From NCBI GenBank assembly GCA_017545095.1, contig JAFYCU010000150.1:1-26763 (forward strand): 26,763 nt of DNA. Direction: 5' to 3'. Both the position numbers and the translations under genes were made by a program. Of the stretch, positions 1 through 24,836 are shown in pieces; within the stretch, counting starts at the first letter, position 1, and each line of letters begins with the position of its first letter. This DNA comes from Muribaculaceae bacterium. Its GTDB lineage: Bacteria; Bacteroidota; Bacteroidia; Bacteroidales; Muribaculaceae. The notes below the pieces were generated by a model, which was not told the origin of the DNA, ran no database searches, and saw only the letters and a program-made list of their open reading frames with translations.

Positions 1-136
1 GGACGACAACGTGGTGTTTGTCAAGGGCGATGTGAAGGGCCACATCGACACCGAAGGCCGCTTCATCACGCTCGAGGACTACGAGAACGGCAACTACGAG
101 GGTGACGGCTGCATCCTGAGTTTCGCCTGCGACTAA
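1..136 (+). CDS. WG-repeat-like protein, C-terminal fragment (cut by window edge)
   Basis: This is the last 44 codons of a gene whose 5' part lies outside the window. The 136 bases match positions 1014-1149 of the next gene with only two substitutions that I can count, so the two are recent tandem copies. The visible peptide contains the pattern VKGDVKGHIDTEGRFITL, a degenerate beta-hairpin repeat of the WG type, and ends CILSFACD (the downstream copy ends CILNVACD). No function can be assigned from the tail alone. It presumably shares the unknown role of its full-length neighbour. Confidence 0.8.
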   Translation, partial: DDNVVFVKGDVKGHIDTEGRFITLEDYENGNYEGDGCILSFACD

Positions 137-417: not shown

Positions 418-1149
418 ATGAACACTGAAGCAAACCTTCCGCGTGCTACTGCTGAAATGGCAGGCCGCTATGATGAGATCGAGAAGATGTTCCGTGGGGA
501 ACTGAGTGATGAACAGCGCGACTCCCTGAACAAGGAGCTTGCCGAGCTGGTGGAGAGCCACAACTGGTTCAACTGTGAGTTCACCGACCCGGAGACGGGC
601 AAGGTGGGGGTGAAGGACGTTGCAGGCAATGTGCTGGTGCCTGCCCGCTACGATGGTGCCCTCTTCCTGGAGAACTACCGGTGGACTCCCCGTGCCCCGC
701 ATGGCATGTCCCGCGATGGCAAGTGCGGCCTCGTCGCCGCCGACGGCTCGGGTGTGGAGCTCTCGCCCTTCACCTACGACGACGTGCAGCGAGTCGTCTA
801 CACACCATTGTATGCCGCATGGTGGGGTGGCGTCGCCGACCGCTTCGGGTTGATCCTGTCTGATGGCACGGTGGTGGTCGAGAACATCCTGACCGAGGTC
901 GGCGATCCGCTTGGCGGCATCTTGGAGGTGACCGCGGGCGACAAGCATGGGGCCATCGACACCGAGACGCTCCAGGTGGTGGCTCCTGAATATGACGAGA
1001 CGTACATCGACGCGGACGACAACGTGGTGTTTGTCAAGGGCGATGTGAAGGGCCACATCGACACCGAAGGCCGCTTCATCACGCTCGAGGACTACGAGAA
1101 CGGCAACTACGAGGGTGACGGCTGCATCCTGAATGTCGCCTGCGACTAA
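418..1149 (+). CDS. WG-repeat-like protein
   Basis: A 243-residue protein without signal peptide or membrane segment, so probably cytoplasmic. After a charged, probably helical N-terminus (residues 1-50) come about five short beta-hairpin repeats of the form K-x-G-x-x-D-x-x-G-x-x-x-x-P-x-Y-D. Clear examples are KVGVKDVAGNVLVPARYDG, KCGLVAADGSG, RFGLILSDGTVVVE and KHGAIDTETLQVVAPEYDE. This is the WG-repeat pattern with the tryptophan mostly lost. WG-repeat proteins are common in Bacteroidetes and some occur in toxin-immunity loci, but no function follows from the sequence here. The start at 418 is the first ATG after the promoter box. The 3' end is nearly identical to the fragment at 1-136, and the following intergenic region is duplicated too. 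Confidence 0.85.
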   Translation: MNTEANLPRATAEMAGRYDEIEKMFRGELSDEQRDSLNKELAELVESHNWFNCEFTDPETGKVGVKDVAGNVLVPARYDGALFLENYRWTPRAPHGMSRDGKCGLVAADGSGVELSPFTYDDVQRVVYTPLYAAWWGGVADRFGLILSDGTVVVENILTEVGDPLGGILEVTAGDKHGAIDTETLQVVAPEYDETYIDADDNVVFVKGDVKGHIDTEGRFITLEDYENGNYEGDGCILNVACD

Positions 1150-1180
1150 CCCCCGGAAAACGAAGATCGCGTTGATGGCT

Positions 1181-1264
1181 CCTTCCAACCCGACTCGGTC
1201 GTCAGCCCTATTGCCTGTTGATGCCGGGACATCAACCCTGATGGCCGAATCGGGTCTCGGAAGG
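1181..1264. repeat. Long imperfect palindrome, copy 2
   Basis: Second copy of the nested stem-loop. The main stem pairs 1189-1205 with 1238-1254. The inner 7-bp stem pairs 1217-1223 with 1230-1236 around the loop CCGGGA. The outer stem CCTTCC/GGAAGG pairs 1181-1186 with 1259-1264. Within 176-241 the differences from copy 1 fall at the unpaired mismatch (C-T becomes C-A), in the loop (CCGAGA becomes CCGGGA) and in the bulge, so the pairing is unchanged. Confidence 0.75.
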
Positions 1265-1329
1265 GGACGAACTCAACTTTCCACCTATACAGTTCCAGCA
1301 GACGCCAAATGTATGTCGAAAAAACACCG

Positions 1330-1337
1330 TAATTTTG
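1330..1337 (+). promoter_or_regulatory. Bacteroidetes -7 box (TAATTTTG)
   Basis: TAATTTTG occupies the same place relative to the palindrome as the box at 349-356 and was evidently duplicated with it. It would give a leader of about 95 nt for the retropepsin-like gene at 1440 and could drive the three-gene block up to the terminator at 3641. I see no clear upstream TTTG element. Confidence 0.55.
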
Positions 1338-1439
1338 AGCGCCCAATCAAAACCGGCCTTTACAAACCATTGATTCTATTACCTTGAAAAACACGCAACG
1401 CGAACCAAACAACAGTTATTCACTTTTAATAAAACGATT

Positions 1440-2117
1440 ATGACACAGACATTTAACATCCAAGTGTATCATGGTCACCTAATTATGAACTGCAACGGAA
1501 ACGAGGTGCTCCTCGACACAGGCAGCCCTATGACTTTGGGCAAAGGGCAGACCCTGGAGTTCATGGGACGGTCGGTGCGCTGCGAGGAGAGCGCGATGGG
1601 CTACAGCTTCGACACCATCAAACAACAGCTGGGACGCGACATCGACGCACTCTTGGGCATGGATACGCTAGGCAGCCTGTGCATGCTGGTGGACTGCGAG
1701 GCTGGCGAGGTGGTGTTCAGCGACGAACCGATGGCTCCCGACAACGCGGTGAATTTTCCCCTGCTGGTGTCACCAGTCGGCGTGATGACCGAGGTCGATG
1801 GCAAGGTGGTGAAGCTGGTCGTGGACTCGGGAGCGCAACTGTCGTATTTTGACGAACAGCTCCTTGAAGGGCTGGAGCCCACCGACGTGCGCGAGGACTT
1901 CTATCCCGGCATTGGCACGTTTGAGGTGCCCGTCTACGATGTCATGATCGACCTGGACGGCATCCAGCTGCAGGCACAATGCGGTGCGATTCCGGCAAGC
2001 GTGTTGATGGACATCTCAAAGATTAACGTTGGTGGTGTCATCGGCCAAGACCTCTTCGCCAGCCACAAGGTCGCCTTCGACTTCCAGCAACGCAACATGT
2101 ACATTTTCAATAACTAA
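1440..2117 (+). CDS. Two-lobed retropepsin-like aspartic peptidase domain protein, copy A
   Basis: A 225-residue protein with no signal peptide. It carries two aspartyl-protease signatures: VLLDTGSP (Asp26-Thr-Gly) and LVVDSGAQ (Asp129-Ser-Gly). Each is followed later in its lobe by the hydrophobic-hydrophobic-Gly-x-Asp turn typical of retropepsins (LLGMDTLG and VIGQDLF). One chain therefore holds both halves of a pepsin-like active site, whereas most bacterial retropepsin-like proteins have one lobe and dimerise. Both catalytic aspartates are present, so it may be an active intracellular endopeptidase; the substrate is unknown. It is paralogous to the gene at 2963, including about 30 bases of leader (1363-1395). 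The next gene starts 19 nt after its stop, which suggests an operon. Confidence 0.8.
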   Translation: MTQTFNIQVYHGHLIMNCNGNEVLLDTGSPMTLGKGQTLEFMGRSVRCEESAMGYSFDTIKQQLGRDIDALLGMDTLGSLCMLVDCEAGEVVFSDEPMAPDNAVNFPLLVSPVGVMTEVDGKVVKLVVDSGAQLSYFDEQLLEGLEPTDVREDFYPGIGTFEVPVYDVMIDLDGIQLQAQCGAIPASVLMDISKINVGGVIGQDLFASHKVAFDFQQRNMYIFNN

Positions 2118-2136
2118 CCCCAAAACCTTAACAACT

Positions 2137-2907
2137 ATGACTGACATGATTACTTATCTCAAGGAGTATCGCGAGGAGACCCCGGCATGGATCGAGAACT
2201 ACCTTCGCGGCCAGCGAATCACGTTCCAGGACGTGATGTCGTCAAGAGTCGGCTACTACCCCGGCTGCGGTTTCGATGGCGCGCTCATCAAGGTGTGCAA
2301 CATGGCCCATTGCGTCCATTCCTTCCTCTACGTTGATTATCTCATCGAGAAACACGAGCTGGAGCAGCATCTGGCCCAGCCCCGCAGCATCCACGGGTAC
2401 CATGCCGTAGGGCGCATCGATTGGACAGAGTCGGACCTGACGCCGCACGGCCAGTACCCCTTTAACGTGCACAAAAGGCCGAGGATGAACCCGCTTGCCT
2501 TTGTGGACCGCACGGCACAACCCTTCTGCTTCACCCTCATCATGGAGCGCGACGAAGGGCGCGACGACTCGTGGGGAGCCGAGCACTTCGCTGTCACCTT
2601 CTTGCTTGCCGACGGCATCGCCACCTACTACCAGCTCTTTGCCCGTGAGTATGGTGTGGCACCCTGGATTTTTCTCCTTCAGGACCACGGCTTCGGGTGC
2701 AACTACGACTGTTTCGGCCGGGGCGGGGTGCTCGATGCCATCATCAAGAGGAACAACTGCCGGCCTCCGTTCGTGATCTGTGGCGACAACACCCGCATCT
2801 GGGACGGCTACGAGCACATCAAGCAGGTAGAACCCGTTTGCGGCGGTATGCACCACAACCCCCGCAGCCTGTTCCAGCTGTCTTCACAAACCTTGAATCT
2901 TTCTTGA
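2137..2907 (+). CDS. Conserved protein of unknown function (YYPG-x-GFDG motif)
   Basis: A 256-residue protein with no signal peptide or clear membrane segment. I do not recognise a named family. Visible marks are VGYYPGCGFDGALIKVCN near residue 35, then HSFLYVDYLI, a central GYHAVGRIDWTESDLTPHG, and a C-terminal stretch with many Cys and aromatic residues. The charged and aromatic residues in these blocks look like the fixed positions of a real family rather than noise. The start at 2137 lies 19 nt after the preceding stop; upstream in-frame ATGs would lie inside the retropepsin gene and are less likely. The last residues (SSQTLNLS) are encoded by DNA resembling the leader of the retropepsin genes, so the C-terminus may have been rewritten by the duplication. 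Confidence 0.75.
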   Translation: MTDMITYLKEYREETPAWIENYLRGQRITFQDVMSSRVGYYPGCGFDGALIKVCNMAHCVHSFLYVDYLIEKHELEQHLAQPRSIHGYHAVGRIDWTESDLTPHGQYPFNVHKRPRMNPLAFVDRTAQPFCFTLIMERDEGRDDSWGAEHFAVTFLLADGIATYYQLFAREYGVAPWIFLLQDHGFGCNYDCFGRGGVLDAIIKRNNCRPPFVICGDNTRIWDGYEHIKQVEPVCGGMHHNPRSLFQLSSQTLNLS

Positions 2908-2962
2908 AAAACACACAAAGAGAACCAAAACAAATTTTATTAATAATCAAATAGTTACAACC

Positions 2963-3637
2963 ATGAAACAGACTTTTAAACTTGAAGTGTATCGCGGACA
3001 TCTGATCATGACGTGCAACGGCAACGAAGTGCTCATCGACACCGGCAGCCCGGAAACCATCGGCAAGGGGCAGACCCTGGAGTTCATGGGCAAGAAGGTT
3101 CACTGCCGCAAGAGCTTGATGGGCTTCAGTTTCAACTCCGTCGTCGAGTTGCTGGGTCGCGACATCGATGCCCTCATGGGCATGGACGTGCTGGGCAGCC
3201 TGTGCATGCAGGTGGACTGCGCCGCCGGCGAGGTAACGTTCAGCGATGAGCCACTTGCGCTCGACAACGCCACGTCCCTGCCCTTGCGCGTGTCTGCGTT
3301 CGGCGTGACGACCGAGGCCGAGGTGGCAGGCCGCCACGCCAACCTGATTGTGGATACGGGAGCCCAGCTGTCGTACATCAATGAGCCGTTCGTCGCCGGG
3401 CTGGAGTCTACCGGCATGCGCGAGGACTTCCACCCGTTTATGGGGCGGTATGAGGTGCCGACCTATGACATGACTGTCAAGCTGGCTGGCCGAGACGTGA
3501 AGATGGTGTGTGGTGCTTCGCCGGCACAGGTGCAGCAACTCATCGCAATCATCCATGCTGATGGGGTGCTTGGCCACGACCTGTTCGCGCAGGGCAAGGT
3601 GGTGCTCGACTTCATCACCAAGCGGCTGCTGTTCTGA
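2963..3637 (+). CDS. Two-lobed retropepsin-like aspartic peptidase domain protein, copy B
   Basis: A 224-residue paralogue of the protein at 1440, colinear over its whole length. Both active-site motifs are kept: VLIDTGSP (Asp26) and LIVDTGAQ (Asp131). The late-lobe turns are LMGMDVLG and VLGHDLF. No signal peptide is visible, so it is probably cytoplasmic. The homology includes the noncoding leader (about 2885-2962 compared with 1363-1439), so the duplication took a gene plus its leader. No promoter box stands directly in front of it; it probably depends on the operon promoter at 1330. A strong hairpin terminator starts 4 bases after its stop. The substrate is unknown. Confidence 0.8.
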   Translation: MKQTFKLEVYRGHLIMTCNGNEVLIDTGSPETIGKGQTLEFMGKKVHCRKSLMGFSFNSVVELLGRDIDALMGMDVLGSLCMQVDCAAGEVTFSDEPLALDNATSLPLRVSAFGVTTEAEVAGRHANLIVDTGAQLSYINEPFVAGLESTGMREDFHPFMGRYEVPTYDMTVKLAGRDVKMVCGASPAQVQQLIAIIHADGVLGHDLFAQGKVVLDFITKRLLF

Positions 3638-3640
3638 ACA

Positions 3641-3677
3641 TTGGAAAAGGGGGGGAGCCCCCCCAACTCCAAGTTTT
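3641..3677 (+). terminator. Rho-independent terminator after the retropepsin operon
   Basis: A TTGG/CCAA base (3641-3644 with 3669-3672) encloses a run of seven G facing seven C with a minimal loop, followed by TTTT at 3674-3677. It marks the end of the left-hand gene array. Confidence 0.7.
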
Positions 3678-3781
3678 GTTGCATGTAGCACAGGGCTGAA
3701 ACTGAGGACAAGACACTCAAAAATCATCAAAAACCACAAAGCCATTAGTATGCCTATTATTTCACCCAAAAAAACAGAGTT

Positions 3782-3886
3782 ATGGATGAAGAATACACTT
3801 ACGCCCAAGGCCTTAAAGACGGGTTCATGATTTATACAATTCTGAGTATTGTAATGGGAATTATATCCGCATTATTGTGGGGTTGA
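3782..3886 (+). CDS. Possible 34-residue single-pass membrane peptide
   Basis: A short reading frame, ATG to TGA, in an AT-rich intergenic region. The peptide starts MDEEYTYAQGLKDG, which is charged and polar. It ends with about 19 hydrophobic residues (FMIYTILSIVMGIISALLW), enough to span a membrane once. The polar-then-hydrophobic layout is typical of small membrane proteins. A stem (3893-3925) begins seven bases after the stop and could end the transcript. Against it: no clear promoter box or ribosome-binding site is visible, and a short AT-rich frame can look hydrophobic by chance. No function is proposed. Confidence 0.35.
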   Translation: MDEEYTYAQGLKDGFMIYTILSIVMGIISALLWG

Positions 3887-4042
3887 AAGTTCCCAATGGC
3901 ATTACACCAGGAAAATGCCTATTGGAGTAATCGATAAAAAATCAATTTTTAATTCTGCCAATGCATTTTATACGTATCAAAACATCTTTATTGGCACGAA
4001 TCTTGCTCAACATTATCCAAAAATCATATTAAGCATTTAGGT
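3887..4042. other. AT-rich intergenic spacer with a hairpin
   Basis: No convincing gene lies here. The visible structure is an 11-bp stem with a one-base bulge (3893-3903 with 3914-3925; CCAATGGCATT against AATGCCTATTGG). There is no adjacent U-run, so it is only a possible terminator. I could not place a clear TAnnTTTG box for the following addB-like gene. Confidence 0.4.
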
Positions 4043-6724
4043 ATGGTATTACATTACTCTCCTTACTTCGACTCGCACAGTCACTTGGACGTGGCACAGC
4101 GAGGCCCCGCGATGCTTGGCATCGTGGTGTGCGGCACGGCACGGCTGCTCGAGCAGCTGGAGCTGCGCTGCGGCATCGTTGCACCGCAGCTGAGCGGCCA
4201 TGAGCGGCTGGCGGCGTACCACCGCGCACTGTCGGCAGTGGCTGTCAACACCGTGTTCAACAACTCATTCGCTGTCGACCCCATCGGCACCGCCCGCCAG
4301 GTGATGGCATGGTGCGAAGCCCTCGCCATGGAGGGTTGGACACCCGACACGCCAAACGGCGACTCTGCCAAATTGTCATCGCTGGCGCAAGTAGCGCGTG
4401 ACGTGAAAATCAAGGGTATGGCACAACGCTGGAACGACATTTTGTCATATGTCACCCGACATCGTATCATGGCTGATGATGACACCATCGAGGTGCATGC
4501 CCCGCGCGAAATTATCCCCGCTGTGGTGCTCCGCGTGCTCGACCAATTGGGGGCTCAATTCTGTTACGACTCCAAGCCGCAACTTGTGGCAACGGGCGAC
4601 TTGCTGAAAGCGCAGCGTGTGCTCCAAGGTGGCGAGGCCGAGCCCTTGCAGCACGATGAGTCGCTGGCAGTCAAGCATTTCAAACACCGTGCTGCGGCGT
4701 GCCAGTGGTACTTGCTCAATCTCAACGACTTTGCCAAGGGAGTCACCGTGTGCAACGACACCAGCTTGGTCAACGATTTGGCACATGCCATTGGCTGCCA
4801 ACCCGTGGACTCGACCACATCGCAGAGCAACCCCCAAACGCTTCAGCTGTTCAAGTTGGGGCTGTCGTTGTTTGCTCGTCCTCTCAATGTCAACAACTTG
4901 TTGTCCTACTTGCGCGTGCCGGGTCATCCTGCTGGCGGAGTGGCAGGCATGCTGGCCGAGGCACTGGTCGAGGAGGGCGGAATCGGCGAGAAATGGAATC
5001 AGGTGCTGGAAGAATATGATTTCACCGACGACAAAGGCAGAGACCGCCGTGCCGATAGCATGAAGTTCGTTGAGTTGGTTACCAAAAGCCACCCGAACAA
5101 CGTCATCATCACCGACGATGTGCGGCAGTATGCCCACGACCTGGCTCACTGGGCCGACACGATGTTGCGCAGCGAGCACATCGACGACTTGCGCAAGGAG
5201 CAGCTGGCTGTGCTGGGCGACTACTGCCGGGCTTTGGTCGACATGTTGTCCGCTACGGCCACAATTGCTGCCGACAAACTGCAACAACTGGTCAACGGCA
5301 TCTATCAACCCCATGCGTTCACCCATTGCCGCGCCACGCGACACTCGGCGGAGACTGTCGCCTCGCCGCTGCAGCTGGTCGACCCCGCCAGGTCGTTGTG
5401 CTGGCTGGGCTGCGTGGGCAGCGATATGATGCCTTATCCGTTCGAGTTTGTGAATGAGGTGGAATTTAGTCATCTTGCCGTTCAGGGAATTAAGCTGATC
5501 ACGAGAACCGACTACTATGCCCTTCAGCAACAGATGGTCATGAGTGCTTTGGCACGCGTCACTGAGCGGTTGACTCTCATCACTTGGGACTACGATGGCA
5601 ACGCATCGGTGGAGCAACACCCCGTGGTCACCCACTTGGCCACCGCGTTCAAGAATTCGAGGTGGAAGGTCGACGAGCCGCAGTTGCCGACCAACACTGT
5701 GCCCATCTCCCGTCTGGAGCATCAAGCCGCCTATGAAGTGGACAACCTGCTCAGCGGTTGCCGTCGTGCCTATGAGAGCAACACGAGCCTTGACAAGTTG
5801 ATTCAGTTCCCGTTTGATTATGTGGTGGAATATATGGCCAAACTGTATGAGGCTGGCGACGCGCAGTTGTCCGACCTGGATATGACCATGGGCAATGTGG
5901 CGCACTTGGTGGTGGAGCAGTGGGTCAACGACTTCAAGGGTGGCAATGCGCCATTCGCTTTACCCGACAATCTGGACGACCGCATCAATGCAGCCATCAA
6001 CCAGAAGGGTGCTGTCCTGCTCCTTCCCGAAAACCAGATGGAGTGTACCTCATTCATCGCAAAGCTCAAGGAAAGCCTGCGCACACTGGCCGACATTATC
6101 CTGAGCCAGCATCTGCGCCCTGTGGGCAGCGAGGAAGAGTTGCTCGTTGACCTGCCCGAGATTGGGCCGTTCAAGGCCTTCATCGACCTGCTGCTGAAGG
6201 ACACGAAGGGGCGTTATGTTATCTTTGACCTCAAGTGGACCATGTCGGGCCGCCACAAGGAGAGCTTGGAGAAAAACGTATCGCTGCAGCTGGAACTTTA
6301 CCGCCAGGCTGCGAAAGTGCACTATGGCCTGGACTATCTGCCCCGCGTGGCTTACTACTTGCTGCCGCAATGCAAACTCGTTGCTGCCGACACCTTTGCT
6401 CCTCACAATGCCATTGAGCAGGTCAAGGTGGATGCTGCGCGTGCACAATGCAACCTGTTTGAGGAGATAAAAGCCGCTGTGCGTTATCGTCGTGGCGAAC
6501 TCGACACCGGGCATATTGAGCAGAGCGAGCTGATGCCACTTGATGGCATTCCCTATGCCAAGCAGGCAGGACTTGTGCCGCTCAAGGAGCATGACTATCT
6601 ACAGGGGTGCAAGAGGGGACCTTACGCTTCTCAGCCCCAAAAAGATAAGAAATCGTGGGACAAACCCACAGACCCCAAGAAAATCGCAACCACCCATCCC
6701 ATTTTAAAAGACAGACTGCAATGA
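4043..6724 (+). CDS. addB: AddB-like helicase-nuclease subunit (PD-(D/E)XK family)
   Basis: An 893-residue protein, the probable second subunit of an AddAB-type enzyme that resects double-strand breaks for RecA-dependent repair. No Walker A motif is visible in the N-terminal helicase-like part (residues 1-500), as expected for an inactivated helicase fold used for scaffolding and DNA scanning. The C-terminus has a RecB-type PD-(D/E)XK nuclease core: FIDLLL (Asp715), then VIFDLKW (Asp729, Lys731), then the Q-x-x-x-Y helix LQLELYRQ. The next gene, the ATP-dependent helicase subunit, starts inside the stop codon (ATGA overlap at 6721-6724), which suggests translational coupling. I could not identify the four-cysteine iron-sulphur set known from Bacillus AddB. 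Identification rests on the nuclease core and the partner gene. Confidence 0.82.
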   Translation: MVLHYSPYFDSHSHLDVAQRGPAMLGIVVCGTARLLEQLELRCGIVAPQLSGHERLAAYHRALSAVAVNTVFNNSFAVDPIGTARQVMAWCEALAMEGWTPDTPNGDSAKLSSLAQVARDVKIKGMAQRWNDILSYVTRHRIMADDDTIEVHAPREIIPAVVLRVLDQLGAQFCYDSKPQLVATGDLLKAQRVLQGGEAEPLQHDESLAVKHFKHRAAACQWYLLNLNDFAKGVTVCNDTSLVNDLAHAIGCQPVDSTTSQSNPQTLQLFKLGLSLFARPLNVNNLLSYLRVPGHPAGGVAGMLAEALVEEGGIGEKWNQVLEEYDFTDDKGRDRRADSMKFVELVTKSHPNNVIITDDVRQYAHDLAHWADTMLRSEHIDDLRKEQLAVLGDYCRALVDMLSATATIAADKLQQLVNGIYQPHAFTHCRATRHSAETVASPLQLVDPARSLCWLGCVGSDMMPYPFEFVNEVEFSHLAVQGIKLITRTDYYALQQQMVMSALARVTERLTLITWDYDGNASVEQHPVVTHLATAFKNSRWKVDEPQLPTNTVPISRLEHQAAYEVDNLLSGCRRAYESNTSLDKLIQFPFDYVVEYMAKLYEAGDAQLSDLDMTMGNVAHLVVEQWVNDFKGGNAPFALPDNLDDRINAAINQKGAVLLLPENQMECTSFIAKLKESLRTLADIILSQHLRPVGSEEELLVDLPEIGPFKAFIDLLLKDTKGRYVIFDLKWTMSGRHKESLEKNVSLQLELYRQAAKVHYGLDYLPRVAYYLLPQCKLVAADTFAPHNAIEQVKVDAARAQCNLFEEIKAAVRYRRGELDTGHIEQSELMPLDGIPYAKQAGLVPLKEHDYLQGCKRGPYASQPQKDKKSWDKPTDPKKIATTHPILKDRLQ

Positions 6725-9700
6725 GAAACATCACCTACATCAACGCCGGAGCCGGGTCGGGCAAGACCTACAAGCTCACCGAGACCTTGGCCGACGCGCT
6801 CCAGTCGGGCCAGTACAAGCCCTCGGAGGTCATCCTCACAACGTTCACCGAACTCGCCGCTGTCGAGTTTCGCGAGAAAGCGCGTGCCAAGCTCTATGAA
6901 CGCAACATGCCTGAAGTGGCCAACCAGCTTGCGGCAGCCACCATCGGCACCGTGCACTCGGTGGCACTGCGCTTCGTCCAGAAGTACTGGTATCTCATCG
7001 GCATCTCTCCCGACCCTAAGGTCATGACCGACGAGGACTCGAAGGTCTACACCAGCCAGTCGCTGGCCAACCACATCACGCCTCAGCAGTTGCAGTTCTT
7101 CAGGGAGTATGCCGACTTCTTCGGTTTGGATGACCCTGACTTCTGGCGCGAGAATTTGCTCAATCTCATCGCCAAGCTCGATGCCTATGCAATCGACATT
7201 CAGCAGAGCCGTGCGTTAAGCCTGGCTGCCATCGACCAGATTTTCACTGGCAGCCAACCTGTTGGATTTGAAGCACTGGTACGGCGGTTGCAGAACTCGC
7301 TGCATGTGTTTGACAATGAAACGACTAAAAAAGTGAAGTCGGCTGTTGAGGATATCCGCTCGTGGATTGTTGATGAGTCTCATCCGCTCCCATATCACAA
7401 GGCACTGGATTTGCTGGGTTACATCGGTGCTGAAGGCACATTCAAAAATGTGCGCGGTAATGCCCGATGTGACAAACTCAAGGCCGAAATGGGCGAGGCC
7501 GATTTCAACAGCCTTGCCAGCGACTTGGTCGATTACATCAAGGTGGCCCCGCGTGAGTGGATGAAAACGATGGTCAACCACATCTTCGACATCGCCGATG
7601 GATGGCACAAAGAGTTTATTGCCTTCAAGCGCGACAACCACATCATCGACTATAACGATATGGAGCGGCTGTTTCTGCAGTTGCTTGGTGTCGATGCCGT
7701 CAAGCAGGAAATCCAGGGCACTTACCGACTGCTCCTTGTTGACGAGTTCCAGGACTCCAGCCCCATCCAGATTGAGATTTTCAAGCGCTTGTCCTACCTG
7801 ATGAATCACTCTTACTGGGTGGGTGACCCCAAGCAGAGCATCTATGGCTTCCGTGGCACCGATGTCGAGTTGGTCAAGCAACTCGTTGATGAGTTGGGTG
7901 AGCTTGATGGCCAAAACGGCATCAATGTGGACCGCTTGAAGGAATCCTACCGCAGCCGTCCTGCACTAGTCAACTTGGTGACCGACTGCTTTGTACGCGC
8001 CTACAATGGCGTGTTGAGTCATGATCAAGTAGAACTCCAGCCTCACCGCAACGAGGTTGCTGGGCTTGCTGAGCCACTCTCGCACTGGATTCTGCCTGGA
8101 GGCCGAGCCAACGCCCCTCGGTTTAAGGCACTTGCTGCACGTGTCAAGCAACTGATTGACAGTGGAACAAAGGTGGTCATTAAGGATACCGAGACCACGC
8201 GCGACCTGCAACCGGGCGACATTGCCATCTTGTGTCGCACAAACAAGAATTGCAAAGCATTGGCGCAGAGTCTGAAGTGCGCCGGAGTGCCCGTGGCGGT
8301 GATTGATGGTGAAATCACACAGCAAACCGAGGTGCGGCTGGTCGTTGCTCTGCTCAACATGATGGTTTCGCCTAACAACAAGCATGTGCGTGCCGAGGTG
8401 CTGCATCTGCTTGGAGACAAAACCACGCAGGACGTTTTGCGTTGCCGTTTGCAATACCTCAAGAGTTTGGAACAAAAGCCTGAAGACGAGCGCAAGGACA
8501 TCTGGATGGATGACGAGCCATTGATCAAAGACTTGCTGGACTATCGTCGGCAAGTGGCCAATATGTCGGTCACCGACATGGTGCAGAGCATCGTCTATGG
8601 ATTGGGGCTCAACGAGGTGGTGGCCAAGTGGGGCGACCGTGAGGCACGGCAGCAGAACCTCGCCACGCTGGTCGACCTGGCACGACAGTACGACCAGCAC
8701 TGCGTGAACATGGGCATCGGTGCAGCCGTGGGCGGATTCATCAATTATCTGTTCAGCACAACCATCGAGCATCATGTCGACAATGCAGCCAATGCCGTCA
8801 AGGTGCTCACCTACCACAAGGCCAAGGGACTGGAGTGGAACTACGTTATCCTCTATGGACTCGAGAACGATGCGCTTGATGATCAGGAATTTGCCAAGAA
8901 TTCTTTTTGGGGTATGCGCGAACTGCGCCAGAATGACGGTACCTATCTCATCCAATATCTGCCGCGCATTTGGAAAGCGTTTAATTCCAACCTCGACAAC
9001 AGCGTTATTAATGCCATTCAGACCATGGCCTCTTATAGAGTGCTCATGGAACGCACTATCAACGAGGAACGCAACAAACTCTACGTGGGCATGACTCGAG
9101 CACGCGACTACCTCACCACCACCGGCCAGGACGGCAAGACACTCGAATGGGTGAAAAATACGGGCATCTCGGCTGGGGATGTCGACAATTTGTGGCAGTA
9201 CAATGCCCTCCGGCCCACCTTCGAGTCACTTCAGGCGGTCGATATCTCCACCATTGCCCCTACTGTGGAGCAACGCGTGGCATATCCCGAAAAGGGTATC
9301 ATCAGCAATGAACCCAAGTATCTCTCGCCCAGTGTTTTGACGCTGCCTGAGGGTGAGGCCGTGGACGTTGAGGTGGTGGCACGATTTGGCGACCGCATAT
9401 CGCACGGCAGTGTAAGTGAAGAACTGGAAGCCATTTTCGGCACCTGCATCCACAACATTTTCGCGGTCTACGACCCCGCAGCGTCGCGTGAGGAGAACAT
9501 CACACGGGCAAAGCGCATCCGCGACGGCTACAACCTGTTAGATGCACTTCCGAACCTTACAGCAGTTATCGAATCGATTGAGTCGCTCTACTCCTTCCTT
9601 GAGCAAACCTACGGTCCTGCCCAACGCATCGACCATGAGACTCCATTTGTGCATGTGCTTGATGGGCAGGAGGTGCATGGCGAGATTGACCTGCTGTGGT

Positions 9701-9906
9701 ACACTGCACCCGGAGAGTGTGTGCTGGTTGACTTCAAGAACTATCTTGGCAGCGAGAAAGCACTGACCAACCCCGCCGACAAGCACTATGCTGGACGTTA
9801 TGCACCCCAGTTGCAAGCTTACTACAATGTGCTCACTCAGGCTGGAAACAACGTGCGTGACAAGCTCATCTACTATTCCGTCCTGCGCCGGGTGGTCAAG
9901 GTCTAA
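6721..9906 (+). CDS. addA: AddA-like UvrD/Rep-family helicase with C-terminal nuclease
   Basis: A 1061-residue superfamily 1A DNA helicase-nuclease. Motifs in order: Walker A AGAGSGKT (residues 9-16), Walker B LLLVDEFQDSS (Asp341-Glu342), motif III VGDPKQSIYGFRG (about 367-379), motif V YHKAKGLEW (about 697), motif VI YVGMTRARDYL (788-798). A RecB-type nuclease follows: HGEIDLLW (from 986) and VLVDFKNY (Asp1004, Lys1006), with a QLQAYYNVL helix. It would unwind and degrade DNA from breaks with the AddB-like partner. The start at 6721 was chosen because it overlaps the upstream stop and lies just before the P-loop; an in-frame ATG at 6655 would add 22 residues that do not resemble helicase sequence. 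Confidence 0.92.
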   Translation: MRNITYINAGAGSGKTYKLTETLADALQSGQYKPSEVILTTFTELAAVEFREKARAKLYERNMPEVANQLAAATIGTVHSVALRFVQKYWYLIGISPDPKVMTDEDSKVYTSQSLANHITPQQLQFFREYADFFGLDDPDFWRENLLNLIAKLDAYAIDIQQSRALSLAAIDQIFTGSQPVGFEALVRRLQNSLHVFDNETTKKVKSAVEDIRSWIVDESHPLPYHKALDLLGYIGAEGTFKNVRGNARCDKLKAEMGEADFNSLASDLVDYIKVAPREWMKTMVNHIFDIADGWHKEFIAFKRDNHIIDYNDMERLFLQLLGVDAVKQEIQGTYRLLLVDEFQDSSPIQIEIFKRLSYLMNHSYWVGDPKQSIYGFRGTDVELVKQLVDELGELDGQNGINVDRLKESYRSRPALVNLVTDCFVRAYNGVLSHDQVELQPHRNEVAGLAEPLSHWILPGGRANAPRFKALAARVKQLIDSGTKVVIKDTETTRDLQPGDIAILCRTNKNCKALAQSLKCAGVPVAVIDGEITQQTEVRLVVALLNMMVSPNNKHVRAEVLHLLGDKTTQDVLRCRLQYLKSLEQKPEDERKDIWMDDEPLIKDLLDYRRQVANMSVTDMVQSIVYGLGLNEVVAKWGDREARQQNLATLVDLARQYDQHCVNMGIGAAVGGFINYLFSTTIEHHVDNAANAVKVLTYHKAKGLEWNYVILYGLENDALDDQEFAKNSFWGMRELRQNDGTYLIQYLPRIWKAFNSNLDNSVINAIQTMASYRVLMERTINEERNKLYVGMTRARDYLTTTGQDGKTLEWVKNTGISAGDVDNLWQYNALRPTFESLQAVDISTIAPTVEQRVAYPEKGIISNEPKYLSPSVLTLPEGEAVDVEVVARFGDRISHGSVSEELEAIFGTCIHNIFAVYDPAASREENITRAKRIRDGYNLLDALPNLTAVIESIESLYSFLEQTYGPAQRIDHETPFVHVLDGQEVHGEIDLLWYTAPGECVLVDFKNYLGSEKALTNPADKHYAGRYAPQLQAYYNVLTQAGNNVRDKLIYYSVLRRVVKV

Positions 9907-9990: not shown

Positions 9991-10962
9991 TCACTGGAGC
10001 AGGTGCTGCAGGAAACGGCGCTGGGCGGTGTCGGGGACCGACTGGAGGGCGGTGGCGATGGGTTGGCTGCTGGCGGGGGTGTGGCGTGCGGTGCGCACGA
10101 GCAGGGGGACCAGAGGGCTGTCTTGGTGCAGGTGCAGCCAGTGGGCGGTGGTCCACGGCGAGGCGAGGAGGCGTTGGTAGAGTGCCTGGCCGAGGCTGTC
10201 GGGGGCGGTTGGGGTGGTCGTGAGAAGCCGTTCGATGGCGTCGAGGGCTTGTTCGTCCTGGATGGAATACCAGGTGAGGGCTTCGACGAGTCGGCTGGTG
10301 CGGCCGCCGTCATCCATCTCGTCGAGGGCGGCGTTGGCGTCGCGGTGCATGATGTGGCCGCGCTGATCCACCTCATAGGTGTCGCTGCCGGTGGCTGTCC
10401 ACGTGGCGTGGCCTTGCTCCGACTGCTGTCGCAGCTCGCGCGCCACGGTGAGCTGGCGGCCGGCGGCGGTGAGGTGTGCCTGCTCCAGGGCGGTGTGGCC
10501 GGGCGAGGTGTAGCGCTCGTTCGCGCCGGCGCATGTGCCCAGGTTCAGGCGGTCGATGGGTGTGCCGGCGGCGTTGTAGGTGAGCAGCAGCCATGTGGCC
10601 GAGTGGCCGCGCTGTTGGCGGAGCATCACAGCGGTGATCTCCTTGTCGACCGGGTAAACGCCCATGAGGGCTATGGGCTGCGTGGCGGTGTCGGCGTCGC
10701 ACAGTTGGTCGAGCCCCAGGGTGGTGATTTGGTCGATGGTGAGCCAGCGGTTGTGCTGGGTGGCCCAATTGTCGTCGTGGGGTGGGGCATAGTCGCTGGG
10801 AATCATCATCGTGTCGGGGTTGATGCCTGCTTCGCGCAGGAAGTGTGTGCCGCCGTCTTGTGCGGCGCGGCGTGCTGCCACCTCGCGGTCGTGGCGGCTG
10901 CCGGTGCAGGCGGCCAGGGTCAGCACCAAGATGCACAGCGTGAGTGTGAGGGTTTTATCCAT
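9991..10962 (-). CDS. Exported lipoprotein, tandem paralogue 3
   Basis: A 323-residue protein with a lipoprotein signal peptide (hydrophobic residues 4-18, LAAC lipobox, Cys19). The mature part is soluble, so it is probably anchored in the outer or inner membrane. It is the most diverged of three tandem paralogues. It keeps the layout of a conserved internal block (about residues 100-145; LLLTYNAAGTPIDRLNLG here) and a C-terminal helical region matching the WLPLNDPSRI block of its neighbour. I do not recognise a named family. It is the last gene of the minus-strand run, about 100 bp after the preceding paralogue. A long open frame on the opposite strand lacks protein features and was rejected. 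Confidence 0.75.
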   Translation of the reverse strand: MDKTLTLTLCILVLTLAACTGSRHDREVAARRAAQDGGTHFLREAGINPDTMMIPSDYAPPHDDNWATQHNRWLTIDQITTLGLDQLCDADTATQPIALMGVYPVDKEITAVMLRQQRGHSATWLLLTYNAAGTPIDRLNLGTCAGANERYTSPGHTALEQAHLTAAGRQLTVARELRQQSEQGHATWTATGSDTYEVDQRGHIMHRDANAALDEMDDGGRTSRLVEALTWYSIQDEQALDAIERLLTTTPTAPDSLGQALYQRLLASPWTTAHWLHLHQDSPLVPLLVRTARHTPASSQPIATALQSVPDTAQRRFLQHLLQ

Positions 10963-11063
10963 ATAGTAAACAAGTTTTTTGGCTACGAGCTACGAGCGTC
11001 GCGATGTGGTGGTGTTTCGCAAAGCAGCCTTGCGACCTGCTGACGGATTGTGCTCTTGGTTCT

Positions 11064-12104
11064 TCATTGCTCGTTGCAGTTGAGCAGTTGCAGGAAGTAG
11101 GCTCGCTGTTTGGCGTTCTTGATGCGGTGTGCGGCGCGGCAGGCCATGTCGTGGCTCATGAGTCCGCTGTCGATGATTTCCAGAACCATGGCTGTGAGGT
11201 GGTTGCCGGGCTGGTCGCGGTGGGCATACATCCATTGGAAGAAGGCTTGTGGCGACTGCTCGAAGTAGTTCCAGATGAGCAGATTGACCAAATAGACGGC
11301 ATCGCTCGTGTAGTCCTTGTCGCTGCGCTCGCGGACCATCTCGGTCTGGATTTCCTTGTCGTCGATGAGCTGGTTCAGCCGCTGGATGCGGCTGGGGTCG
11401 TTCAAGGGCAGCCAGTTCATTTGCTTGAGTGCCTCGAAGCGGAAATACTGCTCGAACACTTGGCCCGTGTCGTGGCTGTCGACATCGGCCAGGGTGAGGT
11501 GTCCGTGCTGGTCGATTGTGTAATGATAGGTGTAGGTGCGTTGCCCCACTACCTCGGCTTGGCTGGAGTTGCCGTTGTGCCACACACAACATTGGTAGGT
11601 GCGCTGGAGACTGAAGGCGTTGTCGCCCTTGCCCTGGGTGATGATGGCGGAGTTCCAGCGCACATCGGCCTCGCTCTGTGGGTCGTCGTCGATGCTGAGC
11701 GGGCTGGTGTCGGTCCAGTAGCCTGTGTCAATGTAGTCGGTGAGCTGCCCCTGCTGGTTGTAGATGGCCAGCTCCTGCTCTGCGCCATCGCCATGCTCAT
11801 GCGAGAAGAGCACGATGGTGTGCTGTGGCGTGATGCGGAACACGCCCACGATGGAGCGCATGCCCTCGGCCAGGTCGGCCTCGATGGCGTCGCTCCAGTG
11901 CACGGCATCGTCGAGCAGGGCAATCACCAGCGAGTCGGTGATGAGGTAGTGGCGCGTGGTGTCGTTGATGGTGAAGCGCTCGTTGTGGCCGATGACGGTC
12001 ACTTGGCCTATGTCCACACCTAAGCGTGTGAGGAAATGGGTGGATGCTGCGGCCATGGCGGCGGACAAGCACAGCAACATCGTGAGTAGCAATGACTTTT
12101 TCAT
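11064..12104 (-). CDS. Exported protein, tandem paralogue 2
   Basis: A 346-residue protein with a signal peptide (MKKSLLLTMLLCLSAAMAA). It has no clear Cys after the cleavage region, so unlike its two neighbours it looks periplasmic or secreted rather than lipid-anchored. The shared family block SHEHGDGAEQELAIYNQQG (about 101-119) is followed by an LTDYIDTGYW stretch. A second block, YHYTIDQHGHLTL, precedes the conserved NWLPLNDPSRIQRL helix. The molecular role is unknown. It lies 51 bp downstream of paralogue 1 on the same strand, probably cotranscribed. Confidence 0.75.
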   Translation of the reverse strand: MKKSLLLTMLLCLSAAMAAASTHFLTRLGVDIGQVTVIGHNERFTINDTTRHYLITDSLVIALLDDAVHWSDAIEADLAEGMRSIVGVFRITPQHTIVLFSHEHGDGAEQELAIYNQQGQLTDYIDTGYWTDTSPLSIDDDPQSEADVRWNSAIITQGKGDNAFSLQRTYQCCVWHNGNSSQAEVVGQRTYTYHYTIDQHGHLTLADVDSHDTGQVFEQYFRFEALKQMNWLPLNDPSRIQRLNQLIDDKEIQTEMVRERSDKDYTSDAVYLVNLLIWNYFEQSPQAFFQWMYAHRDQPGNHLTAMVLEIIDSGLMSHDMACRAAHRIKNAKQRAYFLQLLNCNEQ

Positions 12105-12155
12105 GTTGGTGGAATCAAAACAAAATCCCGTGAGTACAGTGCTCGCAATGGGGTG

Positions 12156-13235
12156 TCAGCCCACGGCGCCGTCGGGTCCCCACTGCGCGGTGAGCTGGTC
12201 GAGCCAGGTGCGTGCCTCGCCGTCGGGCAGTTTTTCCAGCTCCTGAATCATGCGCTCCTTGCGCAGCCAGCCCGAGGCGAACACTTTGCGCAGCAGTTCA
12301 ATCACGGCAGTCTGGTGACGGTTGGCCGCCATCCAGCCCAGCACCATGGGTGCATTTTGCTCAAATGCGCTCTGCATCACGCCCAGCAGCACATAGGCAG
12401 CCAGACCCTCGGGGTGAGCCAATTCCTGTTGCACTTCGTCGCGCTGCAAAAGCGTGGCCATTTTTTCTAAACGTGCAGGGTCGCTGGCGGGAATGTAATT
12501 CAGGTCGCTGATTTCGTCGAGCAACAGGATGCGTGGGTCCACGGGACCTTTTTTTTCGATGTCGGTGCCATCGTGCACAAAGTGGCCGTCGCCGTTGATG
12601 GTGTAGCGGTAGTTCTTGAGCAGTGCCCAGTGTATGGTGCCGAAAGTGGTGGTGCCGTCGTCGGTGATGCAATAGTCGCACAGGGCATAGTCGCGCTTGA
12701 GCGTGAAGCCGTGCCGGTCATCGTTGAACTCGCAGCACATCAGCTCGTGGTAGGCTTTCCCCTGAATGTAGTCGGAGTTCTCGTCGGGATGGAAGGTGTC
12801 CCAAGCCCCGGTGTCGAGGAAGTCGGTCATCTTGCCGTTTTGGTCGTAGATGGCCATCTCACGCCCTGCGCCGTCGCCATATTCGATGTGGAAGAGTACC
12901 AAAGTGTGGTCGCCTGCCAGCGGGCGCAGGCCGGCGATGTAGAAGCCGCCCTCCATGTCGTTTTCGTCTTTTGATAAGTCTAGGTGGTAGACATCGTTGA
13001 GCAACGAGCGCACTTGGGCGGGGTTGAGGCTGACCATGTTGTCGCTGTTGCGGTACTCCACTTTGCCGTCCAGGGTGGGAATCTTGCTCACGTCGATGCC
13101 CAGTTGCTCGAGCATCGGGCAATGGGCCTTGGACTTGCTCGTTTGCCCGTTGGCTTGACGCTCAGTGTGGCTGCTCGAGCCGCAGCTGGCCAGCAGCACT
13201 GCCGCAAGCAGGACGATGAAAATCGTTTTATTCAT
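12156..13235 (-). CDS. Exported lipoprotein, tandem paralogue 1
   Basis: A 359-residue lipoprotein (MNKTIFIVLLAAVLLASC, Cys18 as lipid-modified residue) with a Ser/Thr-rich linker. The family block HIEYGDGAGREMAIYDQNG (about 117-135) is followed by MTDFLDTGAW. Later come YRYTINGDGHFV and LNYIPASDPARLEKM, which line up with the same places in paralogue 2. No catalytic motif is recognised. I chose the ATG at 13235 because it begins a standard signal peptide; an in-frame ATG at 13247 adds only four residues and directly abuts the stop of the relic upstream. The only promoter box visible for this gene lies upstream of that relic at 13427-13457. Confidence 0.78.
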   Translation of the reverse strand: MNKTIFIVLLAAVLLASCGSSSHTERQANGQTSKSKAHCPMLEQLGIDVSKIPTLDGKVEYRNSDNMVSLNPAQVRSLLNDVYHLDLSKDENDMEGGFYIAGLRPLAGDHTLVLFHIEYGDGAGREMAIYDQNGKMTDFLDTGAWDTFHPDENSDYIQGKAYHELMCCEFNDDRHGFTLKRDYALCDYCITDDGTTTFGTIHWALLKNYRYTINGDGHFVHDGTDIEKKGPVDPRILLLDEISDLNYIPASDPARLEKMATLLQRDEVQQELAHPEGLAAYVLLGVMQSAFEQNAPMVLGWMAANRHQTAVIELLRKVFASGWLRKERMIQELEKLPDGEARTWLDQLTAQWGPDGAVG

Positions 13236-13247
13236 ATAAACAAGCAT

Positions 13248-14507: not shown

Positions 14508-14515
14508 TAATTTTG
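14508..14515 (+). promoter_or_regulatory. Bacteroidetes -7 box (TAATTTTG)
   Basis: TAATTTTG matches the consensus, and the coding start at 14588 lies about 70 bases downstream. The nearest TTTG (14478-14481) is 26 bases upstream, more than the usual spacing, so only the -7 box is well supported. Its presence argues against the in-frame ATG at 14513 being the protein start. Confidence 0.6.
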
Positions 14516-14587
14516 CCATTTCAAATGCCGAAGTGTATTTTGACAAACACGGAGACAACGATAACTAAAAACATAACAAAAAGCAGT

Positions 14588-17500
14588 ATGAAAAAGATTC
14601 TCACTCTGTTGGTTGCCTTGCTGACCATTGTCGGCATGCAGCCTGCCCGTGGCGAGGAGGCCCTGAAGCGCGAAATGCGCACGGTGTGGGTCGCCACGGT
14701 GTCGAACATCGATTGGCCGCGTACGCGCGGCAGCTCGGCGAGCGTCATCGCCACACAAAAGAAACAACTTACCGACCTGCTCGACGGTTTCGTCAAGGCC
14801 AACATGAACGCCATCTGCCTGCAGGTGCGCCCCATGGCCGACGCGCTCTACCGCTCGAGTTACGAGCCGTGGTCGAGCTACCTTACTGGCACGCGCGGCA
14901 AGGATCCTGGATGGGATCCCATGGAGTTTGCCGTGGAAGAGTGCCACAAGCGCGGACTGGAGTTCCATGCCTGGGTGAACCCCTACCGCTTCAGCAACAG
15001 CAGCGGCAACGACTGCAACACAGCCATCGACCAGCAAATCAAAGCCTCGGGCATCCTCATGCATGGGGCCGAGACTAGCCGCCTGGTGTTCAACCCCGCC
15101 CTGCAGGCCTCGCGCGACCTGCTGCTGAACGTGTGCCGCGAGATGATTGAGAACTACGACATCGACGGCATCATCTTCGACGACTACTTCTATCCCGGCG
15201 GCGGCATGCCCAGCGGCAGCGCAGCCGAGGACTACCAGCTCTGGCAGCAGACTGGCAATGGCATGAGCATTGGCGACTGGCGCCGCGAGAATGTGAACGA
15301 GATGGTGCGCCAGATGTGCGAGATGGTGCAGGAAACCCGTCCGGGCGTGAAGTTCGGCATCGGCCCCGCCGGTGTGGCCGGTACCGCAGCCACCAGCGCC
15401 AGCAAGCACGGCGTGACTCCCTGCCCCACGGGCAGCGACTGGCAATACAACCAGATTTACAGCGACCCGCTGGCCTGGCTCGAAGAGGGTACCATCGACT
15501 ACATCTCGCCACAGCTCTACTGGAAGTGCAACCACTCCACCAACCCCTTCGGACCGCTCACCCAGTGGTGGAGCTACATCGCGCAGCACTTCAACCGCCA
15601 CCACTACGCCAGCCACAACATCTACTTTATGGCCGACACCAACACCGAGGAGGATTGGGCCGAAATTGTGCAGCAAATCAACTACAGCCGCCTCTACAAC
15701 CTCGATGGCGCACCGGGCGTGAACTTCTACTCAGCCAAGTACATCGACGGCCCCACCTGTGCCGGTCTGGCCGACTACCTGAAGCAGACCGTGTTCACCA
15801 AGCCCGCCATCCCTCCCGCCATGACGTGGAAGACGCGCAAGGTTTACAACCCTGTGAGCAACGCAGCCATGAACGGCACCGCGCTCACGTGGACTGGCGT
15901 GAACGAGCGCGCACAAATCAAGTATGCCGTCTATGCCATCCCCAACACCGCCTCGCTGGAGGAAATCCAGAGCACGGTCACCGATGGCATTAAGAGCGAC
16001 TATCTGCTCGGCCTGACCTACAACACCACCTACACCATTCCCACCGCCTATCGCGACGGCTACTGGTATGCCATCACGGTGATTGACGGCTGGAATTACG
16101 AGAGCGCGCCGGCCTATGTCAACGCACCCGTGGGCGATGCTGATCAGGTGACGCTGCTCTCGCCTGTGGGCACCACCGTGAGGTCGTGGATGCCCAGCTT
16201 CCGCTGGACGGCTGCCGAGAATGCCACCTACACCCTGCAGGTGGCCAGCGATGCCGACTTCCTTGATGTGCTTATCCACCGCACCAATATCTCGACCAAC
16301 GAGGTAATGGTGAACTTGAATGCCTTAGCATCGAGTACCACCTATTACTGGCGCGTGATTACTTCACAGAATGGTCGCTTCGACAAGGCATCGGAATCGG
16401 CCACGTTCACTACCGCCCAGCGGCCCTATGCTCCGTCAGCCACCCTGCTCAGCCCAGCCAACGGTGCAAGCATCGACAACGACTTTGCTCTCGAATACAG
16501 CATTTCCGCCGAGGTTACCGGCAGCACGCTGCAAGTGGCCAGCGATGCTGCTTTTGCCTCCATTAAGCTCGAAAGCACCAATGCCGTGGAGCGCAACGGA
16601 CACCTGGCCGTGGACATCCAGCCGGGTCTCCTCGGCAAGGGCACATTCTACTGGCGTGTGCTCACCGAGGCCGATGGTTGTGACCCTGGCATCTCGGAGG
16701 TGCGTTCGTTCACCATTACCAGTCTGCCCACCGGGGCCTATGAGCCGGGATATGTGGTCAAGCGCGACATCGACACCTATCCAAACATCGACGGCCTCAA
16801 GCTCACCAACCGCTGGGTGCGCTCCATTAAGGAGGATTACGACAACATCGTGTTCGATGGCGATGGCCTGATGAACCGTGGCATCACCGCCATGGGCGAC
16901 CGTGTGCTCATGATTGGCCGCTCGGCAGGTGCCAGCGATGCCGATGTCTATATCGCTCACTTCGATGCCGCCACTGGCGAGCGCATCAAGACCGTGCCCG
17001 TCGACGATCAAGTACAGGCACTTTACTACCCTGGCAACGACATCTTCCTCGACGATGCCGGTCATGCGGTCATCAGCAACCTGGTGCTGCAAATCAGCTC
17101 GCAACCGATCCAGATTTTCCAGGTCGATCCCGACACTGGTGCTGCCACGCTGCGCGCAAGCCTCACGGCAAGTGGTACATCCACCAACCGCATCGACCAC
17201 TGCAATGTGCTGGGCGATGTGAGTAGCAGCAAGTTCTGGGTGATGGCTGCCATGTCGAGCGGTACGCAGATTATCCGCTGGACGGTGGAGAACGGCAACG
17301 TCACCGACACCAAGATTGTGAATGTTAAGGCTCGCTATCCTAGCTCGGCCAGCAACTTTGGCTTGGCACCGCGCATCTATCCTGTGAGCGAGACGAAAGC
17401 TTGGGTAAGCGGTGGCAGCACCCACCTCACGCTCTACAACCTGAACACTGGCAACATCATTGACAGCTTCTCCTATAACGAGGACATCGAGCCTGAAGGC

Positions 17501-23909: not shown

Positions 23910-24836
23910 ATGAACAAGAAACAATTCTCTTTACGCCATCTGCTGATGGCTTTTGGGTGTGGAATGCTACTGGTGGGCGGTGTGTCGCTCATGGCTCCTC
24001 ACCGTGTGTCGAGCGGCGTTTACGGTGATGTGAACGGCGACGGCGTGGTGGATGTCGACGACTTGAACGAGGTCATCAACGTGATGCTTGGCAAGCCCCA
24101 TGGTGGCAACCACGATGGCAACACCTTTACCGTGAACGGCGTCACGTTCAACATGGTGTCCGTTGAGGGCGGCACGTTTATGATGGGTGCGACCCAGGAG
24201 CAGCTCGGTGATGCCGACAGCGATGAGAAGCCTGCCCATCGAGTGACGCTGAGCAGCTACAGCATCGGCGAGACCGAGGTGACGCAGGAACTGTGGCAGG
24301 CGGTGATGGGCGATAACCCGAGCCACTTCACGGGCAACCTGCAACGCCCGGTGGAGCAGGTGAGCTGGAACGACTGCCAGGAGTTCATCACCAAGCTGAA
24401 CGCGCTCACGGGCGAGCACTTCCGCCTGCCCACCGAGGCCGAATGGGAGTATGCCGCACGCGGAGGAAACAAGAGCCAGGGCTACAAGTATGCTGGGAGC
24501 AACGCCCTCAGCCAAGTGGGATGGTATGAATTCAATGCCGAAGACGTGGGCGAAGACAGTCCCGACTATGGCACGCACGCGGTTGCCACTAAAGCTCCGA
24601 ACGAGCTGGGTCTCTACGACATGAGCGGCAACGTGTGGGAGCGGTGTAGCGACTGGCACAGCTACACTTACTACGATGAATCGCCTGAAATGAATCCCCA
24701 AGGGCCTTCTACGGGTTCCTATCGAGTGGCACGTGGTGGTGCTTGGGACTATCAGGCTTCTCGCTGCCGTGTATCGTACCGTCACCGCGCCGGGTCTGAC
24801 GGGGGACACAACGTAGGCCTGCGCTTAGCGCGGTAG
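23910..24836 (+). CDS. SUMF1/FGE-fold protein with N-terminal dockerin-like module
   Basis: A 308-residue exported protein. Residues 1-34 are a signal peptide or membrane anchor. Residues 38-62 are a single dockerin-like half (GDVNGDGVVDVDDLNEVINV), unusually at the N-terminus. The rest is a formylglycine-generating-enzyme (SUMF1) domain: NMVSVEGGTFMMGAT, IGETEVTQELWQAVMG, RPVEQVSWNDCQEF, RLPTEAEWEYAARGG, GLYDMSGNVWERCSDW, VARGGAWD. True aerobic FGE has two cysteines five residues apart near the end. Here one Cys is present (SRCRVSYRHR) but Arg stands at the second position, so sulfatase activation is unlikely. A structural or ligand-binding role is more probable. Confidence 0.87.
   Translation: MNKKQFSLRHLLMAFGCGMLLVGGVSLMAPHRVSSGVYGDVNGDGVVDVDDLNEVINVMLGKPHGGNHDGNTFTVNGVTFNMVSVEGGTFMMGATQEQLGDADSDEKPAHRVTLSSYSIGETEVTQELWQAVMGDNPSHFTGNLQRPVEQVSWNDCQEFITKLNALTGEHFRLPTEAEWEYAARGGNKSQGYKYAGSNALSQVGWYEFNAEDVGEDSPDYGTHAVATKAPNELGLYDMSGNVWERCSDWHSYTYYDESPEMNPQGPSTGSYRVARGGAWDYQASRCRVSYRHRAGSDGGHNVGLRLAR

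Follow-up and report, generated by a model that had tools for sequence, protein, structure and literature searches.

Passages of a study of bacterial pepsin homologues (PMC2761423) speak of a 'chicken and egg' situation: two-lobed pepsins may have arisen by fusion of a one-lobed ancestor, or the one-lobed viral enzymes may descend from one half of a pepsin. Excerpts of that study and a second one describe shewasins, A1 pepsin homologues reported from seven bacterial species, as cytosolic proteins with two lobes per chain and no signal peptide (PMC2761423, PMC4814920), and a passage of the former states that similarity between the lobes of family A1 is not observable beyond the psi-loop motifs. 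According to excerpts of their descriptions, Ddi1 and the retroviral proteases carry one lobe per chain and are active as dimers (PMC11313796), and bacterial RimB likewise has one lobe per chain. Here we describe proteins A and B of a Muribaculaceae bacterium, two-lobed aspartic-peptidase-like paralogues encoded on either side of an uncharacterized protein, M, on contig JAFYCU010000150.1 (positions 1 to 26,763 of the forward strand; this whole stretch of 26,763 nucleotides (nt) is referred to as the window).

Each of the two proteins carries a pair of catalytic-type motifs, D26-T-G and D129-S-G in A and D26-T-G and D131-T-G in B. A passed the Pfam cut-off for PF13650 (26.7 bits, cut-off 24.3) and B that for PF08284 (25.0 bits, cut-off 20.3), while the PADLOC candidate PDC-M08B, a model of 127-128 amino acids (aa), scored 28.3 bits over one lobe of A and 26.8 bits with B. 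An AlphaFold model, made of A only, showed a complete two-lobed aspartic-peptidase fold (mean predicted local distance difference test score, pLDDT, 93.7). The pepsin-like arrangement that a first-pass annotation of the DNA letters had read from the paired motifs thus agrees with the model and, as that annotation also had it, no hydrophobic leader was visible by eye at either N-terminus.

We examined conservation in an alignment of 76 family sequences, which includes near-duplicates (L022/L023; L032/L035/L036; L001/L004/L006; P0009/G429) and truncated frames (L009, L018, L036) and omits L024 (two open reading frames, ORFs), the fragment P0016 and the window's own P0001 and P0003; for L018, the first motif is mis-assigned in the alignment, the correct one lying 104 residues from the second. 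D26, G73, D129 and Y136 were invariant in 76 of 76 sequences, G202 was present in 71 with a gap in the other five, and F154, P156 and G159 were kept in 72-74. A and B are real, conserved proteins, very probably of aspartic-peptidase fold, and catalysis by both is likely. The same positions bear on a different reading, in which the fold binds a peptide or protein instead of cutting it. No family member is known to have been characterized, and the conserved Y136, F154, P156 and G159 would also suit a binding site, but both aspartates, both Asp-x-Gly glycines and G73 show zero variation across very divergent sequences, and we regard a non-catalytic binder as quite improbable.

The clan AA signature of the PF13650/PF13975/PF08284 group, Asp-Thr/Ser-Gly together with the hydrophobic-hydrophobic-Gly of the psi-loop, was found in both lobes, and the predicted model of A has the acid-protease fold of the clan. 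Two full lobes per chain were present in 41 of 42 genome loci, as in pepsin family A1 and unlike retropepsin family A2, in which one lobe per chain forms a homodimer; in the 42nd locus, L024, the protease is split between two ORFs that carry a single motif each. When profiles of lobe 1 and lobe 2 were compared, they matched each other with E 9.1e-9 and probability 95.7, the best of 30 column-shuffled controls giving E 0.016. The lobes of A are alike in sequence beyond the psi-loop motifs, unlike those of shewasin-type A1 pepsins, a contrast in which our test covers the A/B family and the published statement covers A1. At 225 residues, A is also far smaller than pepsins, which have 320-340.

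In a search of PDB sequences with a family profile, Ddi1 came first (E 2.4e-8), 9iy9 matched with E 1.5e-6, the best pepsin-type row was candidapepsin (E 0.013), and an engineered single-chain HIV protease (e.g. 1hvc) was matched weakly (E 0.0028). As far as excerpts of their descriptions go, Ddi1, the retroviral proteases and RimB have in common with A the lobe size and the Asp-Thr-Gly-Ala and hydrophobic-Gly motifs, but A holds two lobes in its chain. The same is true of 1hvc (203 residues), with two tethered retropepsin lobes, but that is a man-made tandem of identical lobes, whereas A-type proteins are natural and their lobes have diverged. The 9iy9 entry, a putative endopeptidase of Bacteroides fragilis called 'exported protein' (420 residues), is 10% identical to A and has a matched part of ~280 residues plus a further N-terminal part, whereas A totals 225 aa with no visible leader; no paper containing 9IY9 was found in open-access PMC. 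Judged from these profiles, an A/B-type protein is best described as a naturally occurring tethered dimer whose lobes are of retropepsin size. We recognized no literature on the short two-lobed family, or on the arrays around M described below, among the open-access PMC matches listed, and none on PDC-M08 among the best 5 of 1,561 matches there.

The A/B family is rare yet widely spread in bacteria. A homology search with A returned 35 proteins, two of them the window's own, and a pattern scan with one genome per species gave the 42 genome loci, most of them metagenome bins; the taxa in their titles are Bacteroidota, Ignavibacteria, Acidobacteria, planctomycetes, Neomarinimicrobiota, Denitrovibrio, Elusimicrobia, BRC1, Deltaproteobacteria, Anaerolineaceae, Opitutae and Hydrogenedentota. 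An earlier genome scan using the sequence of A alone found no relative. At E 1e-4, a sample of 393 Bacteroidales genomes gave 45 with a match, only three of them with the short family, all within the 42 loci; the remaining matches were weak and incomplete, most of them within longer frames. That near-identical loci turn up under different phyla (L022/L023; L032/L035/L036) suggests transfer or misbinning. Viral contigs scanned with the A and M alignments, phages searched for M and plasmids searched for A yielded no relative, and a viral or plasmid origin was rejected on these grounds. Intracellular two-lobed peptidases of bacteria, uncommon in the view of the first-pass annotation, have been published as pepsin homologues, in the excerpts from seven species; the smaller family described here is wider, with its 42 loci. 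In a Denitrovibrio bin (L020:574-2145), the protease has a C-terminal extension of ~250-300 aa with no Pfam match.

A and B are 59% identical at the protein and 67% at the nucleotide level, with a synonymous divergence (dS) of 0.95 and a nonsynonymous to synonymous ratio (dN/dS) of 0.345 (NG86), values that point to an old duplication under purifying selection. In a tree (FastTree topology), B clusters with the A-like metagenome proteins P0002, P0004 and P0005, and A stands apart. The divergence and the separate tree positions rule out a recent duplication of A and B. Recent duplication, proposed for this locus at first, does apply to the WG-repeat-like genes upstream: the end of one such gene and its palindrome-rich downstream spacer are repeated in tandem with 94% identity over 289 nt (1-289 and 1014-1302), a duplication that is, by its sequence identity, recent. 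The WG score falls just under the Pfam cut-off.

A, M and B are three ORFs on the + strand, 3´ of the WG-repeat-like tandem duplication and 5´ of an AddAB-like pair, with intergenic gaps of 19 nt (A-M) and 55 nt (M-B). The single promoter and single terminator first assigned to this block were not recovered in scans of 1100-4100: the sigma-70 scan gave 3 sites vs 2.1 expected, none of them upstream of A on the same strand (Bacteroidetes-type promoters lie outside the model), and the terminator rule found no terminator after B. A G/C-rich hairpin directly before GTTTTGTT is present after B (Table 1). A and B have a 27-nt leader in common, with the consequence that B may have a promoter of its own. 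The two copies were the only matches in 2,055,356 bases searched with up to 4 substitutions allowed, so that the duplicated unit took in the 5´ region.

M belongs to a Bacteroidales family of 253 homologues, one of which, P0179, is named as from a Muribaculaceae bacterium. It had no match in Pfam at E <= 1, in NCBIfam at E <= 0.01 or in PADLOC. Its model (pLDDT 91.9) is Rossmann-like, with a weak likeness to methyltransferases, and methylase matches are weak; M is possibly a methyltransferase-like Rossmann protein. A relationship to DUF7663, suggested by eye, gave weak profile scores (hhalign E 0.11, probability 0.5; E 0.0026, probability 11.6 once distant relatives of M were included) and is not established. 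In L100:1791-3557, a distant M relative carries a fused nuclease domain of GIY-YIG (LEM-3-like) type.

The order protease-then-M recurs in one other genome, G429, in which M is 73.5% identical, the protease is 54% identical to B, and the two genes are 46 nt apart, vs 19 nt in the window. To this extent the first-pass idea of a linked A-M-B block stands, but M was found with no protease match in four of the five M-bearing genomes of the G429 group, and the M profile found one match, distant and on another contig, in 25 genomes with the protease family (close M, 0/25). With homologues largely scattered apart from these partner genes, and with the catalytic aspartates and the fold retained, a fixed 'undescribed system' is too strong a description; an accessory array of variable make-up, with a duplicated mini-pepsin in it, is a better fit. 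The same counts favor a reading in which A/B, M and the WG genes are unrelated accessory genes of a gene-trading region, with the protease-M order a matter of shared descent of one locus. M matches (253) also far outnumber A matches (35), and the block has WG and AddAB-like genes with it in the window and in G429 alike. Such indifferent neighbors would be harder to reconcile with the adjacency and order kept in G429 though the genes between and around differ, and with synonymous sites near saturation while the order persisted. We consider this reading plausible but less likely than not.

Around the protease in other genomes, adjacencies are reported as found, with no background comparison. Clustering of 500 ORFs from the 42 loci gave, the protease aside, no family in more than seven loci, and a fixed partner for the protease was rejected, as its neighbors vary and none is constant. 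The commonest family (seven loci), a methyltransferase by Pfam on L001 only, occurs mainly with one protease clade. In L001, L006, L007 and L011 a methyltransferase gene runs 4 nt into the start of the protease, as a fragment does in L017. A VWA protein is fused to the two-lobed protease in L016:880-2916, L030:8684-10651 and L031:8633-10663, and a VWA gene adjoins it in L005. Genes of ADP-ribosylglycohydrolase type adjoin the protease in L002, L013 and L027; L022/L023 have AAA_21 and DUF3226 nearby, resembling PADLOC candidate PDC-M38; and in L015 the neighbors are a kinase-AAA and, scoring slightly below the cut-off, a TerB-like protein. Single neighbors include a YoeB toxin (L029), an HhH-GPD glycosylase (L003) and a DUF7663 protein (L034).

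The M loci of the G429 group (L092-L096, n = 5) lie in dense arrays of small genes. The arrays have 99 ORFs of 90 aa or longer, of which we scanned 82; 25 of the 32 Pfam families are listed and include at least eight SprT-like matches, at least five AAA, at least three each of PARG, NADAR and metallophosphoesterase, at least two each of ART-PolyVal and SAM lyase, and at least one ADP-ribosylglycohydrolase. NADAR and ART-PolyVal/DUF3990-like genes stand side by side, adjoining M, in L095:2608-3821 (by Pfam) and L096:10222-11432 (by similarity). WG relatives are present in L094-L096; in L092 the matches are antisense shadow ORFs only. All five loci encode, no more than 9 kb from M, an AAA+ protein belonging to a single family. 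Members of this family (L092-L096, L167-L226) have ~570 aa and a long N-terminal part, and often occur in several copies per genome, of which only some share an array with WG, SprT-like, metallophosphoesterase and M genes. The family is common: in one Bacteroidales group 40 of 86 genomes matched, as did 41 of 163 Bacteroidota-level genomes, only seven of the latter over most of the protein. It is also encoded upstream of the protease in L042 (aligned over 475 columns), and the kinase-AAA of L015, with a related AAA domain, lies two genes upstream of the protease.

In IetAS, IetA is accompanied by a subtilisin-like protease. The arrays of relatives likewise hold IetA-like AAA+ proteins and peptidases, and two of the five array AAA+ proteins, scored against IetA models, reached ~100 bits. 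Unlike IetAS, no subtilisin is among the Pfam families listed for the arrays, and the array AAA has a long extra N-terminal part. These likenesses raise a reading in which A/B, together with M, the SprT-like proteins and the ADP-ribose enzymes, would be swappable parts of an anti-phage or stress array under an IetA-like AAA+, the ADP-ribose, SprT-like and SAM-lyase matches and the AAA genes upstream of the protease being in its favor. Against it, the L092 AAA reached 94.6 bits against the NCBIfam anti-phage IteA model, whose cut-off is 510, and no array-type AAA+ is among the listed ORFs of the window, the flank to its left lying outside the data. In 66 loci examined, including the window, six had M and three had the protease (the window counted once, as B is hidden by a longer antisense ORF; the third, L207, is on the same contig as L042), and the protease was rejected as a general part of AAA+ arrays. 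A defense phenotype is known for none of the parts, and we think this reading unlikely. The immunity or defense setting first suggested for the locus retains the suggestive arrays around M in relatives, but A, M and B were tied to no tested defense or toxin gene; Pfam, NCBIfam and PADLOC scans gave no toxin for A, M, B or WG, in data that end at the left edge of the window.

To the reading that A and B are cytosolic, monomeric tethered-dimer aspartic peptidases in a variable accessory array we give about an even chance. The chain would fold as a tethered dimer of lobes of ~105 and ~120 aa with one catalytic Asp each and, since each lobe supplies one, would act as a monomeric endopeptidase, with no zymogen and no secretion, probably near neutral pH and with one particular protein of the cell as substrate. 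The gene, in this Bacteroidales lineage, would have been taken into a variable accessory array beside the AddAB-like helicase-nuclease pair, the old duplicate kept, and M would be a neighbor, probably co-transcribed with A; a functional link to M and a role in stress or conflict are conceivable. Several observations weigh against this picture: activity is known for no family member found, 41 of the 76 aligned sequences had been gathered by a scan for the second motif and were then kept for having both, the protease is as rare in arrays as counted above and has different neighbors in different genomes, and its adjacency to M, seen in two genomes only, could be explained by shared descent. A broader proposal, which we put forward as speculative and rather doubtful, is that the family is a natural single-chain cytosolic retropepsin dimer of many bacterial phyla, with the shared origin of its lobes yet visible in the sequence, and a living example of a postulated fusion stage between half-pepsin dimers and pepsins, recruited in gut Bacteroidales, after duplication, to AAA+-linked arrays as a swappable effector peptidase. 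Of most interest is the family as such, as a retropepsin dimer occurring naturally in a single chain: widespread, two-lobed, of minimal size and recognizably repeated, it offers material for phylogenetic and structural tests of the origin of pepsins, and its members are small soluble proteins suited to assay. The M-bearing arrays of gut Bacteroidales, with their AAA+, SprT-like and NADAR/ART/PARG genes, look little explored.

Table 1. Features at and around the A-M-B locus (positions in the window).
Feature	Position	Strand	Remarks
Upstream WG-repeat-like gene copy, 3´ end, cut by window edge	1..135	+	direct repeat 1-289 / 1014-1302, 94%
WG-repeat-like protein, 243 aa	418..1149	+	PF14903 24.8 bits vs cut-off 25.6; relatives in 8 array loci
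Leader common to A and B, 27 nt	1383..1409	+	89% identical to 2903-2929
A, two-lobed aspartic-peptidase-like protein, 225 aa, Asp26 and Asp129	1440..2117	+	
M, uncharacterized Bacteroidales family, 256 aa, Rossmann/methyltransferase-like model	2137..2907	+	
Second leader copy (B side), overlapping the end of M	2903..2929	+	27 nt, 89% vs 1383..1409
B, paralogue of A, 224 aa, Asp26 and Asp131	2963..3637	+	59% to A; PF08284 above cut-off
Hairpin then GTTTTGTT, possible terminator	3636..3690	+	fold -21.7 kcal/mol, no shuffle control
AddB-like protein, C-terminal region PD-(D/E)XK-like; probably accessory neighbor	4043..6724	+	weak nuclease matches
AddA/UvrD-like helicase	6655..9906 (GTG start as listed; scanned from 6727)	+	TIGR02785 216 bits, under its cut-off

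Relatives of the AddAB-like genes were found only beside the M arrays of G429 and G719 (AddB-like in 2 of 7 genomes, AddA-like in 2 of 6, with search thresholds that may miss diverged genes), and because so few genomes carry them the pair looks accessory. Further along the window, three consecutive genes of similar size on the - strand (9991-13247) have lipoprotein- or signal-like starts and look like paralogues by eye. The product of 14513-17980 is a large protein with what we take, by eye, to be C-terminal dockerin-like repeats, and 23910-24836 presumably encodes a formylglycine-generating-enzyme-like protein with dockerin-like repeats near its N-terminus, again as judged by eye.
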